In this document: piece after piece, positions 5,001-61,191 of the stretch
Position numbering within the stretch: position 1 is the first letter of the stretch
Layout of the letters: every line of letters begins with the position of its first letter
DNA from: Pontederia crassipes
Lineage: Eukaryota > Streptophyta > Magnoliopsida > Commelinales > Pontederiaceae
NCBI GenBank assembly: GCA_030549335.1
Contig: CM060195.1
Span: forward strand, 27,036,874 to 27,100,873
DNA length: 64,000 bases
Direction: 5' to 3'
The notes under the pieces: model-generated
Seen by the model: only the letters and a program-made list of their open reading frames with translations
Told to the model about the DNA's origin: nothing
Database searches by the model: none
Program-made: the position numbers and the translations under genes

Positions 5001-6150
5001 CTGGTGCGCCTCTACCAGCTCCCAAGAGCCAAGGAATCTGTCCAGTCGGGATCTGGATGATGGTGTCGCCGTGCTCCGCCAGGTAAAATGGCAGTTCGTT
5101 GCCGGGGGGTCCGACAACGACTAGAGTCGATGAAATCCCTGAACTCCTCCGCGCCAAGGTCTCTCCCCTGACGTCTGGTGGGCCAATCATCCATGTCCAG
5201 AGTGACATTGAAGTCGCCACCGATCAGCCATCGGCCATCCGGAAGATGAAGAGGGGCCGCCGTTAGCTCCTCCCATAGAATCTGCCGGAGGGAGCCCGAG
5301 CAGGGGCCATATACGCAGGATAGGAGATAGGCAGACCCATCAGAGCTGTGTTTCAGGTGGATTGTCATCGAGAAACGGGCTGTCCAAGAATCCACCATAG
5401 TAAACTGATCTGCCCGCCAGTCAATGATACAACCCCCAGACTGCCCGACTGAGCTAAGGCAGATGTGCTGAGTAAGCCGAGTACCGGCAATCTGCTCCCG
5501 CTCCCAAATCTGTGTGCTGCACTCCATGAGCTTAGTCTCATGGAGGAATACCACTTCAACCTCCCACTCCCTCAGGTAACGGACGTTCCATGTAAGAACC
5601 TTCATAGGGAAACCGTAGTCGTCCCGCCTGTGGGTGAAACATGACCCACTCCTGGCCGCCTTCTACAGCCACCCCGGGTGAGCAGCAGGAACCGTTGGGG
5701 GGGGGGGACGGTGAATTCCAAGTGGCCGTCGATGTGACTCTGATCTCGAGCGGAGGTGTCGCTTGGTCAACCTGAAACCAGCCCGGGCCGCGACATCCAG
5801 GACGTCGGCATCCACCGTCCAGGGAGGAGAGAGGGCTCGCTCGCCGTCCCCTCCAGGGGCGTGGGTAACACCGGAGGGGGAGAAGGAGGAAGTGATCTAC
5901 TCGCGGCGGATTCCTGGGTCATCTGAGTCACAGGTGCCGCGGCGGTTTCCAGTGGCGCATCTGCGAGGCCGGAGGCTTCAGCAACTGAGCGGCGGCGGCG
6001 GCCGTAGACGCCGGTGGACGCAACCCGTCGTCCCTTTCGCGTTGGGGATGGCGGCATTTGGTGTCGGAGGTCTGGTGGTGGAGGTGGGCTGAGGAGAGGG
6101 GCTCGCCGGAGGGATGGGCCGGCGTCGGTGGAGGCGCCGGAGGAGAGAAA
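2056..6150 (-). mobile_element. L1-type LINE, decayed, antisense in the EH gene intron
   Basis: An about 4.1-kb non-LTR retrotransposon on the minus strand. The 3' end is at 2056: poly-T on the plus strand, then the hairpin GGATGACCACC / GGTTGTCATCC. Moving leftward from about 6150, the order is a GC-rich 5' leader (5610-6150), endonuclease (5605-5012), reverse transcriptase (about 4600-3340), and a zinc-finger region typical of RVT tails (about 2530-2400). ORF1 seems to be missing. The left tail and domain order are clear, while the right boundary is approximate because I found no convincing TSD. Confidence 0.8.
2400..5605 (-). pseudogene. LINE ORF2: endonuclease + reverse transcriptase, frameshifted
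   Basis: This is the remains of an L1-type ORF2 that once cut the target and reverse-transcribed LINE RNA. The N-terminus MKVLTWNVR at 5605 starts an exo-endo-phos endonuclease (FLHETKL, SCVYGP, GGDFNVTL). It appears shortened just after the WNVRY motif, where about 20 residues seem absent. RT motifs follow: SAFVHGRSITDS and KVDFSKAYDSLSWSFL near 4050-3950, then the catalytic box YADD (complement of 3668-3679) in LLQYADDTVFF, then SFIPFG and the TYLGLPLS motif. Near 2500-2400 comes VMCGEKAEDGTHLFFSCR, the zf-RVT tail. The pieces fall in several frames with stops between them, so the protein cannot be made. It is antisense to the host gene. Confidence 0.85.
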
Positions 6151-6586: not shown

Positions 6587-9500
6587 GCGCAGGAAGTAGA
6601 AAAGCAAATCTTAGACTCGAGGGAGAAGATTGAATTCTACCGGACAAAGATGCAAGATCTTGTAAGTTTTCTTAATATTTTAGATGCTATCTCTAGGATA
6701 ACATTGTTTTGATGAGCAATTTATATTGTTACCTCTTGAGGAAAAATTAAGTTGATCATGTTTGCCTTAACAAATTTAACTATTTGACTCCTTTTGCAAT
6801 TTTCTTTTCCTTTTGTTTCTTTACGATTATATCATGGAATTTTGTTTGTTGGAGCAACTGAGGCATGGCACTTAATTTAAGGGGGATAGAGGATGACTAC
6901 CAAGTGGTCACATAACATTGGTGTATTCACCTGCTTTGGGTCATTTGGTAGTCATCCTCCATCCCCCTAAAAAATTCCCATTTTTCTTCTGGGCATCCAT
7001 GTACTCAAATATATATATACATATATATATATATACAACAACAACAACAACAAAGCCTTATTCCACTAGGTGGGGTCGGCTACATGGATCATACGACGCC
7101 ATTCCAATATATATACATATATATATGTATATATATATATATATTTGTTCAATTTGATGTGCTAACCAATTTTCCTAAAAGCTTAAGCCATTAGGAAGAG
7201 CAACATCATTAATTTTATATTCTTTAACACTCCCCCTCACGTGGACTGCAGACAACTTTTTGGTCTAGCCCAATCCACCACGTGAACAACAAAGGAAGGA
7301 GCTTAACTCTCTGGCTCTGATACTATGTTGAATTTGATGTGCTAACCAATTTTCCTAAAAGCTTAAGCCATTAGGAAGAGCAACATCATTAATTTTATAT
7401 TCTTAACAATATATATATATATATATATATATGGATGGCAACCACAGCTCTGGTGGTCATTCTTTTTCTCCTCAAAAAAATAAATAATAAGAAGAAGAAA
7501 TCCATGTACTAAAAAAAATCCCATTTTTCTATACTTCTTGTACACTGTAGTATTTCAACTCATTTATCTTTTAAGTGGTGATTGCATATTTTAAATATGT
7601 ACTATAACATTTCCCTCAAAAAATGTGCTACGTAACATATTGTTTCATTTTTGTTGCTCGCATTGATCTTGCCTGATATTGTCCTTTTATTCGAAAGGTT
7701 CTTTACAAGAGTAGATGCGACAATAGACTTAATGAGATCACTGAAAGAGCATCTGCAGATAAACGCGAGGTAATTTATCCATTTAACAAAATGGATCCTC
7801 AGATAGTTGGTAATTTGTTGTTGATGTTTAATATTATCAAACATTTTGACTTAGTATTATTGCTTTTCTGTCTTCTGCATGATAATAGCTATTATTCGTT
7901 CACGTTCATGAGAAACAGAAGAGATCAACTTAGTTTTCTGGAGATTTAGGCATTCTTAATAACAGTAGTTTAGTAATTGCAGAATAAGTCTAGTGGCCAA
8001 TATGTATTACTGCATCGAAATAACCCCCAGACTGCCTGGGGAGAGCTGACAGATCTCACTGCAACGTACACGGGGTTCTGTAACTATCACAAACTCTGTT
8101 AACCAGGGAACCTTCTACTCACTTCAGGATTCATGTGTTGCTGGCACAGTGCATACCAGTTCTTTTGGCTCACAGTTTGTGAAGATGCACTATCCTTTTC
8201 TGCCTAGCTAAATATGCTGAAGGAAAAATGTACAAATAAAAAAAGCCCAGATCAGACAGAACATAGAAAGGCAAAAAGGAAAAGCTATTAACACAGAAAA
8301 AGCTCCAGAGAACAGAAAACAAAGACCTTTTTGGATAGGTCACTAGAAAGTGGAATTGTTGGAGAGTGGAAAGATCACCAGGAGAGGAGATTGCAGAATG
8401 GGCTTATACTTCTTTCCTTCTTGGCTATGCAACAGTGTGTGCACTTCTGGGATATATCTGATTTCTTCTCTTATATGACAGGGTTGGCATGTGTAGGTTG
8501 GGTCAGAAATTCATGTTTCCACACGGGCCTGTGGATTCCCAATGTTTTCCCTTTTATCTTTCTTCTTTTTCGACAGAAGATACATAATAATGGAACAAAA
8601 ACTTGAAAAACATTAACCCACAATTCTCGTCGTCTGATGTCACCATCGGTCCACCACATATCCAGGTGTTTTGACTTAGAAGCATAAAAAAGACCTACAA
8701 GCATCATGATAGGTTGTCTCAAGTAAGTTAAGTAGCTAAGGTTATAGCATTATGGAGTCCTTCCATTTGAGTTTCAGACTTGTAACATCGCACGCAGCCA
8801 TCGCGATGGGGGCAAACGTGCGCTAGGGCACCTTGCCGCCTAGGGTCTCCGGCCCTTCATCGCCGGTGTGCGGTGCGACCGCCATCACCGGCGACTCCCT
8901 CCGGCGGTGCCGCTTCCGCCTCCGGTGGCCCCCGCCGGCGGCGTCACCAATGACGACTCTCGCCTCTCTTTTTCGGCTGGTTTTCTGTCCCCCCCTTCCT
9001 CTTCGCCACCTCCATCCACGCTCCCTCCGGCGGTGCCTCTGCCGGCTCCGGTGGCTCCCGCGGCAAGGCGTCACCGACGACGAACTTCGTGTCTCTTTTT
9101 TGGCTGCTTTTTCCCCCTGCTTCTTTTTCGCCACCCCATCCACGTGCCCCTGCTTCCCCATCGTCACCTCACCCACTTTCAGCAGACCCTGCCTCCGGCA
9201 ATCCCTGCCGGTGGCGCCCGCCGTCGATTCTCCTCTTCTAATCCCGCACCTGGGCCGTGGCTCCTCCTTGGCGTGTTCGGGAACAGCATGGCCCGCTCTC
9301 GCATTGTGGTAGACCATGAAGGCTGGTCGAGGAGATCTGCAACGAGGGATGTCCCTCCGTCTGGCTTGCGGGACACGATCTGCTATCGCTGTCGTGGTCG
9401 CGGCCATCTTCAGCGAAGCTGCATGGAACCATTGCGCTGCCTCCGCTGCCACGGTCTGGGCCACCGGCGCGCCGCCTGCCCGTCCAGTCCACACCAGCGG

Positions 9501-58126: not shown

Positions 58127-58299
58127 AGCCGGTCCCAAGCCCGGATAAAGGAGGAGGGTTGTGTTAGGCCCCGACAGTCAGCGTAAAACTCTGTCGAATC
58201 GCATGAACATGGATCAACGAATGCGAAATGACGTCGTATGATCCATGTAGCCGACCCCACCTAGTGGGATAAGGCTTTGTTGTTGTTGTTGTTGTTGTT
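58127..58299 (+). mobile_element. (TTG)n-tailed SINE, longer copy
   Basis: About 173 bp from AGCCGGTCCCAAGCCCGGAT through the conserved 3' block to (TTG)n. It has the same start as the copy at 60705, from which it differs at several sites. I see no Pol III boxes, so the tRNA-like head seems absent. No clear TSD. Confidence 0.78.
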
Positions 58300-60409: not shown

Positions 60410-60527
60410 CTCGCAGTTAAGTCAGTTGATTATTAGTTTGATTTTCTTTTTTCATTCTTATGACAAGTAGATGTCATAAGAATGAAAAAAGAAAATCAAA
60501 CTAATAATCAACTGACTTAACTGCGAG
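60410..60527. repeat. 56-bp perfect inverted repeat with 6-nt loop
   Basis: Arm 60410-60465 and arm 60472-60527 are exact reverse complements around AGTAGA. The arms start CTCGCAGTTAAGTCAGTTGA. The right arm is part of the chimeric insertion that starts at 60473. Confidence 0.95.
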
Positions 60528-60542
60528 ATTATCAACTTGTAG

Positions 60543-60629
60543 GTCGGCTTACAATGGATGCTGTCTCTGTACAATAACAAATTAAATGGTATTTTGGCAG
60601 ATGAGATGGGTCTTGGAAAGACTGTTCAG
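60543..60629 (+). pseudogene. BRM: captured exon of BRAHMA-type SNF2 ATPase
   Basis: An 87-bp, 29-codon exon read in frame: [14 protein letters not shown], then [15 protein letters not shown]. It is the Walker A (motif I, DEMGLGKT) region of the SNF2 helicase domain. The [11 protein letters not shown] wording matches plant BRM rather than SYD or MINU. It is preceded by an intron-like end (TTGTAG) and followed by GTCACT, so the source was unspliced. Phase is 0 on both sides, so it could be spliced into a U-box transcript in principle, but it lies upstream of the U-box ATG. It is isolated and not a functional BRM gene. Confidence 0.9.
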
Positions 60630-60704
60630 GTCACTTTCTATCATATCGTGATTATATATAGTCAGATTAGCCCTTTTTAAAAATATATTTTATATAGCCA
60701 GATT

Positions 60705-60869
60705 AGCCGGTCCCAAGCCCGGATAAAGGAGGAGGGTTGTGTTAGGCCCCGACAGCCAGCGTAAAACCCTGTCGAATCTCATGAACATGGATCAACGAAT
60801 ATGGCGTCGTATGATCCATGTAGCCGACCCCACCTAGTGGGATAAGGCTTTGTTGTTATTGTTGTTGTT
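60705..60869 (+). mobile_element. (TTG)n-tailed SINE at the 3' end of the chimera
   Basis: About 165 bp from AGCCGGTCCCAAGCCCGGAT to (TTG)n. It has no TSD at its own 5' end; the TSD belongs to the larger insert, showing that it moved together with the upstream BRM sequence. Confidence 0.85.
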
Positions 60870-61191
60870 ATTCTTATGACAAGTAGATCCTTTCTCAATA
60901 TATTTAGCTTCATTAGTGATATCACCTGTTATATGGATCGTATTAAATGATACTGTTTCAATTTAGAGGATTGTTTGTGCATTCAGGATATCAACATGAA
61001 GAGTTCTGGTCTTCCCTTAAAAAATGCAAATTTCTGTAGGGCTTACTAACTAAAATTTTAATGATGAAACTCGGAGAACGAAATATCAAAATTTGAGTAC
61101 CGAACTCCTGTTCTTCAGTAATCTTTAATTAGTTGTGCATCATCGAAGTATATTCACACTTATTTCTCTTTTGTAGGTTCTCTTCGAAGAA

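Follow-up and report, generated by a model that had tools for sequence, protein, structure and literature searches.

The window analysed here is a stretch of 64,000 nucleotides of the Pontederia crassipes genome (C13:27036874-27100873), and the genome searched with it comprises 1.13 Gb in 43 contigs. The window carries an insert bounded by a 19-bp direct repeat, whose copies at 60454-60472 and 60870-60888 are identical (19/19). Between them lie, in this order, an inverted copy of the 5' flank, 14 nt of an exon end, the bases GTAG, an 87-nt exon, 78 bp of intron and a short (TTG)n element. The homeologous site on C14 is empty. It has one 19-bp repeat with one mismatch, no palindrome and no insert, and the rejoined window flanks are identical to C14 at 757 of 782 positions. 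By this comparison, the added DNA amounts to 416 bp (60473-60888) at one place. The first-pass annotation had called for a search for an empty site with one copy of the 19-bp repeat, and the homeolog in the same genome supplied it.

The left part of the insertion site is a palindrome. Its left arm (60410-60465, + strand) is original target DNA and is found on C14, as the alignment shows. It overlaps the 5' copy of the target-site duplication (60454-60472, + strand) and is followed by a 6-nt loop, AGTAGA (60466-60471), to which no strand is assigned. The right arm (60472-60527, - strand) is a new inverted copy of the 5' flank together with the first 12 bases of the duplication, and it is missing at the C14 empty site. 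The two arms form a perfect 56-bp inverted repeat. The 3' end of the preceding exon, GAGATTATCAACTT (60525-60538, + strand), shares the bases GAG with the end of the palindrome, which makes a microhomology of 3 nt. A microhomology of 7 nt at this place was considered and rejected, since the gene reads AAGAGATT.

The next four bases, GTAG (60539-60542, + strand), are the beginning of the upstream intron, 4 nt that stayed behind as though splicing had used a donor at position +4. The 87-nt exon itself (60543-60629, + strand) encodes 29 residues and is of SNF2 type. It matches the Pfam family SNF2-rel_dom with an E-value of 3e-11, and its best PDB matches are of the SNF2/SNF2L2 type. From these matches and from its likeness to BRM sequence we take the gene to be BRM. 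The exon ends in a real intron border (CAG/GT), after which come the first 78 bp of the following BRM intron (60630-60707, + strand), closing with the 5' copy of a 17-bp duplication, TATATAGCCAGATTAGC. The insert is completed by a short, 5'-truncated retroposon with a (TTG)n tail (60708-60869, + strand) and the 3' copy of the target-site duplication (60870-60888, + strand). Along 329 bp the block is 99% identical to this genome's BRM gene, or 97.7% when a spliced, gapped template is used. This match and the empty homeologous site on C14 rule out chance.

The source of the block was found on C10. There, 78 bp of BRM intron separate the exon from a sense-oriented (TTG)n element (about 75 bp had been predicted), and a 17-bp duplication of its own, TATATAGCCAGATTAGC, flanks this element on both sides. 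On C9, a nearly identical BRM gene contains the 17-mer once and lacks the element, and thus represents the empty source site. The dispersed copies of the block keep the 5' 17-mer with occasional substitutions and stop at the tail; the second 17-mer follows the tail in none of the eight. Because of these features, and with C9 being empty, the direction was from the gene to the copies. The source locus is known, and the copies begin upstream of the element and stop at its tail, as expected of 5' transduction. The comparison of loci points to a read-through RNA from BRM, which would have carried the upstream sequence. The insert at 60473-60888 is thus very probably a LINE-driven 5' transduction from one BRM source gene. 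The initial proposal of a single BRM RNA read back from the intronic element was borne out by the identity to BRM on C10 and by the end of the copies at the tail.

The same block is present in eight insertions, so the event does not stand alone. Using only the exon-intron part of the window (60523-60706) as the query, we obtained and scored 15 candidates. They comprise eight composite copies, the BRM genes on C10 and C9, an older paralog of BRM on C19 and four further loci of SNF2 type. The composite copies are the window copy on C13, L002 on C12, L004 on C17, L005 on C8, L006 on C12, L007 on C8, L008 on C4 and L011 on C11, and all eight end at the element tail. As an upstream control, 991 bp of BRM ending 405 bp before the block matched only C10, C9 and C19 (3/3 candidates scored, E <= 1e-5). 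The downstream control, 1001 bp of BRM starting 5 bp past the tail, gave the same three loci (3/3 scored, E <= 1e-5). Any copy extending into the 405 bp between this control and the block would include the block as well and should turn up in the exon-intron search. At this search sensitivity, then, copying appears to have been confined to the sequence directly before the tail of the element.

Clear target-site duplications flank four of the eight copies (window, L002, L006 and L008), and L011 has a weak one of 10 bp. No duplication was found for L004, L005 and L007 in up to about 4 kb of 5' sequence; the lack of a clear duplication in four copies is at odds with the transduction model. An empty site for L002 is present on C11. 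L005 seems to have a 12-bp target deletion when read by eye against the rearranged C7 homeolog, and no close homeolog was found over the junction of L004. Loci on C7/C8, C9/C10, C11/C12 and C13/C14 match mutually at 93-99%, a likeness as in a recent polyploid, and they serve as empty-site controls. One query scored equally on C1 and C2, and likewise on C5 and C6. In a separate observation, L007 (within L045, C8:3957300-3965700) was seen to end a 2.8-kb stretch that is missing from a 97% similar paralog at C8:4036564.

Copies that have no target-site duplication could also arise by capture at the DNA level, through a Helitron, a Pack-MULE or double-strand break repair with filler DNA, and the inverted flank resembles the filler DNA of polymerase theta. 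Such capture would have to yield eight copies that all stop at the same (TTG)n tail, with BRM sequence beyond the tail only in the BRM genes. It would also have to remove, in every copy that reaches it (6/6), the 93-bp intron that precedes the exon in the gene. We therefore find DNA-level capture very improbable.

The loss of this intron shows the state of the template. L002 and L005 continue into 18 exact nt of the previous exon across the canonical junction, L004 does so over 18 nt with one mismatch, and L007 over 10 nt. In L006 the canonical junction is read on 3-5 nt only, which overlap its duplication. The window copy has 14 nt of the previous exon plus GTAG, giving the junction CTTGTAG/GTCGG. 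The gene reads CTTGTAG/GTTTGC, where a further donor lies 4 nt beyond the regular one. The window copy therefore resembles the product of an RNA mis-spliced at this alternative +4 donor; slippage is another possible source of the four bases. L008 and L011 leave BRM within the exon, before the junction. The template RNA thus appears to have been partly spliced, with the upstream intron out and the element-bearing intron kept. The unspliced RNA put forward in the first-pass annotation does not agree with the absence of the intron from all six copies extending to the junction (in one case read on 3-5 nt). The same annotation saw intron borders on both sides of the exon. Its right border is real, and its left one was rejected, as these bases are the end of an exon plus 4 nt of intron, in other words a spliced junction.

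The window copy, L002, L004 and L005 match spliced RNA to exactly 18 nt past the junction at most, L007 to 10 nt and L006 to 3-5 nt. The 18-nt limit holds in the window copy too, although its junction is shifted by 4 nt. Given the different splicing of the window copy, a shared parent explains at most three of the four 18-nt ends. The exon junction complex sits 20-24 nt upstream of junctions, and the ends of plant RNA decay products are enriched 25-30 nt upstream of them (PMC10226599). The 18-nt ends could be the footprint of this complex, halting reverse transcription on freshly spliced nuclear RNA, but we regard this idea as quite doubtful. Two to three of the 18 nt (GAG in the window copy, TT in L002 and in L005) may derive from the target or from filler; the true ends would then lie at 15-18 nt, which weakens the idea. 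It is further weakened by L008, whose part from a second gene matches 29 nt past its own junction and disfavours a strict block, although the exon in question, going by its apparent splice sites, measures only 34 nt.

This second gene enters L008 (C4:10193688) directly from the BRM exon. The continuation matches C9:67988952 over 83/83 nt and C10:9558782 at 98% over 81 nt. It comprises 29 nt of an exon joined directly to the exon after it, with the intervening intron removed, and then the first part of the next intron. Thirty joined residues of this gene match a primase zinc finger with an E-value of 4e-4 and 20.6 bits, which is under the Pfam cut-off of 28.8. We presume the gene to be MCM10-like. 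L011 (C11:23357199) has the same chimeric junction over 53/53 nt, and 248 nt separate its weak 10-bp duplication from the second-gene part. A 9-mer present in both genes, ATTTTGGCA, adjoins the switch point between the second-gene intron and the BRM exon in L008 and L011. On the simplest reading, copying switched from one partly spliced RNA to another, and the product later moved a second time. As the two loci share the junction, one composite has probably moved again.

The divergence of the copies was measured against the majority of nine sequences, namely the eight copies and BRM; gaps and tails, among them a 1-nt deletion in an A run of the window copy and differences in its tail, were left uncounted. 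The window copy shows no substitution in 307 positions and appears to be a fresh copy. BRM has 2 substitutions in 308 positions, L002 2/308, L004 3/308, L005 6/308, L006 6/308, L007 7/308, L008 2/252 and L011 2/249. L004 shares a C-to-T change with the present-day BRM which the other seven copies lack, an indication that the copies were emitted at different times. Two C-to-T changes are common to L005 and L007, and one change to L007 and L011. The sharing between L005 and L007 may reflect common descent or repeated C-to-T change, and the shared changes allow that some copies descend from other copies.

The composite could then be a mobile family of its own, in which one spliced BRM-element master gave rise to all the others. 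L002, L004 and L005 match BRM up to the same exact 5' position, L005 and L007 have their two changes in common, and the chimeric junction of L008 and L011 relates at least this pair by descent or through a common parent. However, L002, L004 and L005 differ in the sequence before their shared 5' end, and the change that L004 has in common with BRM is absent from the other seven. Unless slippage produced them, the four intron bases kept in the window copy and missing elsewhere require a BRM RNA of its own. We consider a single master unlikely, though worth weighing, and keep to transduction from the BRM gene, probably followed by renewed movement of one composite.

Next, we consider the element that forms the 3' part of the composite. 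Among 31 sampled loci, which are the best-scoring ones without BRM sequence and not a random sample, 23 open with the exact head ACTCCGCCTATGTTTTATAG. The BRM element starts at CGGTCCC, so it is 5'-truncated relative to this head. Its last 55 nt (60801-60855) are identical (55/55) to the 3' end of L075 (C7:33396000-33404754), a candidate partner LINE. L075 is about 3.0 kb long and 5'-truncated, has a (TTG)n tail and a 16-bp duplication, and contains stretches of endonuclease (PF03372) and reverse transcriptase (PF00078) with one stop between them. At one locus, L045, on the reverse strand, the head of the short element continues into LINE 5' sequence. As for a tRNA-like head, ARAGORN found no tRNA and Rfam gave no match at the gathering score in the window, and the A and B boxes are weak and were read by eye only. 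The element had been called a SINE; it is indeed a short (TTG)n element, but probably a LINE with its middle lost and not a SINE of the tRNA type, such as Au or TS. Its partner looks like an RTE-type LINE by the (TTG)n tail and by a C-terminus resembling that of RTE. The RTE LINEs of flowering plants end in (TTG)n or (TTGATG)n (PMC3747384).

Six of the 31 loci were viewed closely, and they revealed one further 5' transduction besides BRM. The element is preceded by about 104 bp of common sequence in L037 (C11:2185418-2186986) and L042 (C5:59590290-59591855). From where their 14-bp duplications lie, this was probably an independent transduction from L042 to L037. The window contains other traces of the family. 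A second copy of the short element, 94% identical and with a longer 5' head TATGTTTTATAGCC, lies at 58128-58296, where no clear duplication was seen by eye. There are 5'-truncated tail copies at 1367-1459, with the duplication GTAAGGATATCTTG on either side, and at 7035-7102 (- strand), in an AT repeat. A decayed LINE-type endonuclease-like frame is located at 5012-5605 (- strand); its Exo_endo_phos match has an E-value of 0.08, below the Pfam cut-off.

The 5' junction of the window insert requires a separate explanation. The inverted copy begins at the last base of the duplication (60472) and includes the complement of 12 duplication bases. The inverted arm is identical to the C13 flank (56/56) and differs from C14 at three places, which excludes the homeolog as its template. 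The first-pass annotation recognised the 19-bp duplication, the exon, the element and the inverted flank, and all four stand. It explained the inverted flank by a switch onto target DNA, which would be a jump of the cDNA 3' end to the bottom strand. In insertions made by the R2 protein, cDNA 3' ends do prime on cDNA or, less often, on nearby target rDNA, and fold-back of cDNA ends at insertion sites is also reported (PMC11371274). However, when insertion is target-primed, the bottom-strand bases of the duplication remain on the right-hand flank; by this reasoning, a cDNA that copies the left bottom strand should end at 60453. The inverted copy reaches 60465, and its turn coincides with the last duplication base. 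The jump of the cDNA therefore has a low, if appreciable, probability. Since the inverted copy holds 12 duplication bases and starts at the last base of the duplication, we prefer a fold-back of the top strand, which by this strand argument probably fits the inverted flank better. Fold-back priming of this kind would depend on a single base pair, A60465:T60472, which weakens the case for it. Together with the 6-nt loop, copying to 60410 and joining of the cDNA at GAG, it would account for every base.

From these results, the following course of events can be proposed. A short, 5'-truncated RTE-type element would first have inserted in sense into the BRM intron on C10. BRM transcripts that kept the element-bearing intron and had already lost the preceding one would have served as the template, presumably in the nucleus. 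LINE machinery, for which L075 represents a candidate partner, would nick the target and prime on the (TTG)n tail. Reverse transcription would then read back through 78 nt of intron and the 87-nt exon and up to 18 nt past the exon-exon junction. At the window site, the nicked top strand, with its 3' end at 60472 where the duplication ends, would fold back and add 55 bases from its own flank. The folded strand would join the cDNA end at GAG and prime the second strand. The same block would have been placed in seven more insertions, some of them presumably straight from BRM, and one composite would have moved again, as the shared second-gene junction suggests.

If this is correct, an internal exon was lifted in a plant without being spliced onto the element, and an intronic LINE-derived element was the priming site. 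One genome offers the source gene, its empty copy, an empty target and eight insertions, and the spliced junction and the end point at the tail can be observed in the same assembly. The copies record how their template had been spliced, seemingly even the use of an alternative donor 4 nt further on, as well as a switch between the RNAs of two genes. This is a rare clear trace of exon shuffling, in which an intronic element appears to have carried the neighbouring exon to several chromosomes. It also makes the origin of intron-bearing plant gene fragments testable, by a search for fragments whose end coincides with a (TTG)n element in an intron of the parent gene. Among the open papers listed, we met with no case in plants of exons being carried by a (TTG)n element within an intron.

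Parts of this route resemble known systems. SINEs embedded in 3'UTRs, such as Alu and B1, have been proposed to promote reverse transcription of their host transcripts into processed pseudogenes; these helpers act from the 3'UTR with L1, whereas the BRM element lies in an intron and has a (TTG)n tail (PMC5199112). The tobacco TS SINE likewise shares its last part and its TTG repeats with an RTE LINE, RTE-1_STu (PMC3747384), but in the BRM element the first part also seems to be LINE 5' sequence, as seen at one locus (L045). In snap-back 5' junctions and in twin priming of LINE insertions, a 3' end at the insertion site likewise primes DNA synthesis (snap-back, PMC11371274; 5' inversions are mentioned in PMC4245944). 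Unlike in these cases, the primer in the BRM insert is best read as the top strand of the target acting on its own flank, and not as cDNA. The closest known case is that of the exon-carrying SVA elements of apes, and this kind of event is already known there. SVA_F1 with MAST2 exon 1 and pt_SVA_D6 with STK40 exon 1 are likewise amplified non-LTR composites with a spliced host exon on the 5' side, and further SVA 5' transductions include exons of 8 other genes (PMC6139936). In these two SVA elements, which number 84 and 94 copies, it is a first exon that was presumably joined to the element by splicing (PMC6139936). The BRM composite, by contrast, is found in a plant in eight copies and has a (TTG)n tail of the RTE type, and its internal exon is linked to the element through intron that was retained.
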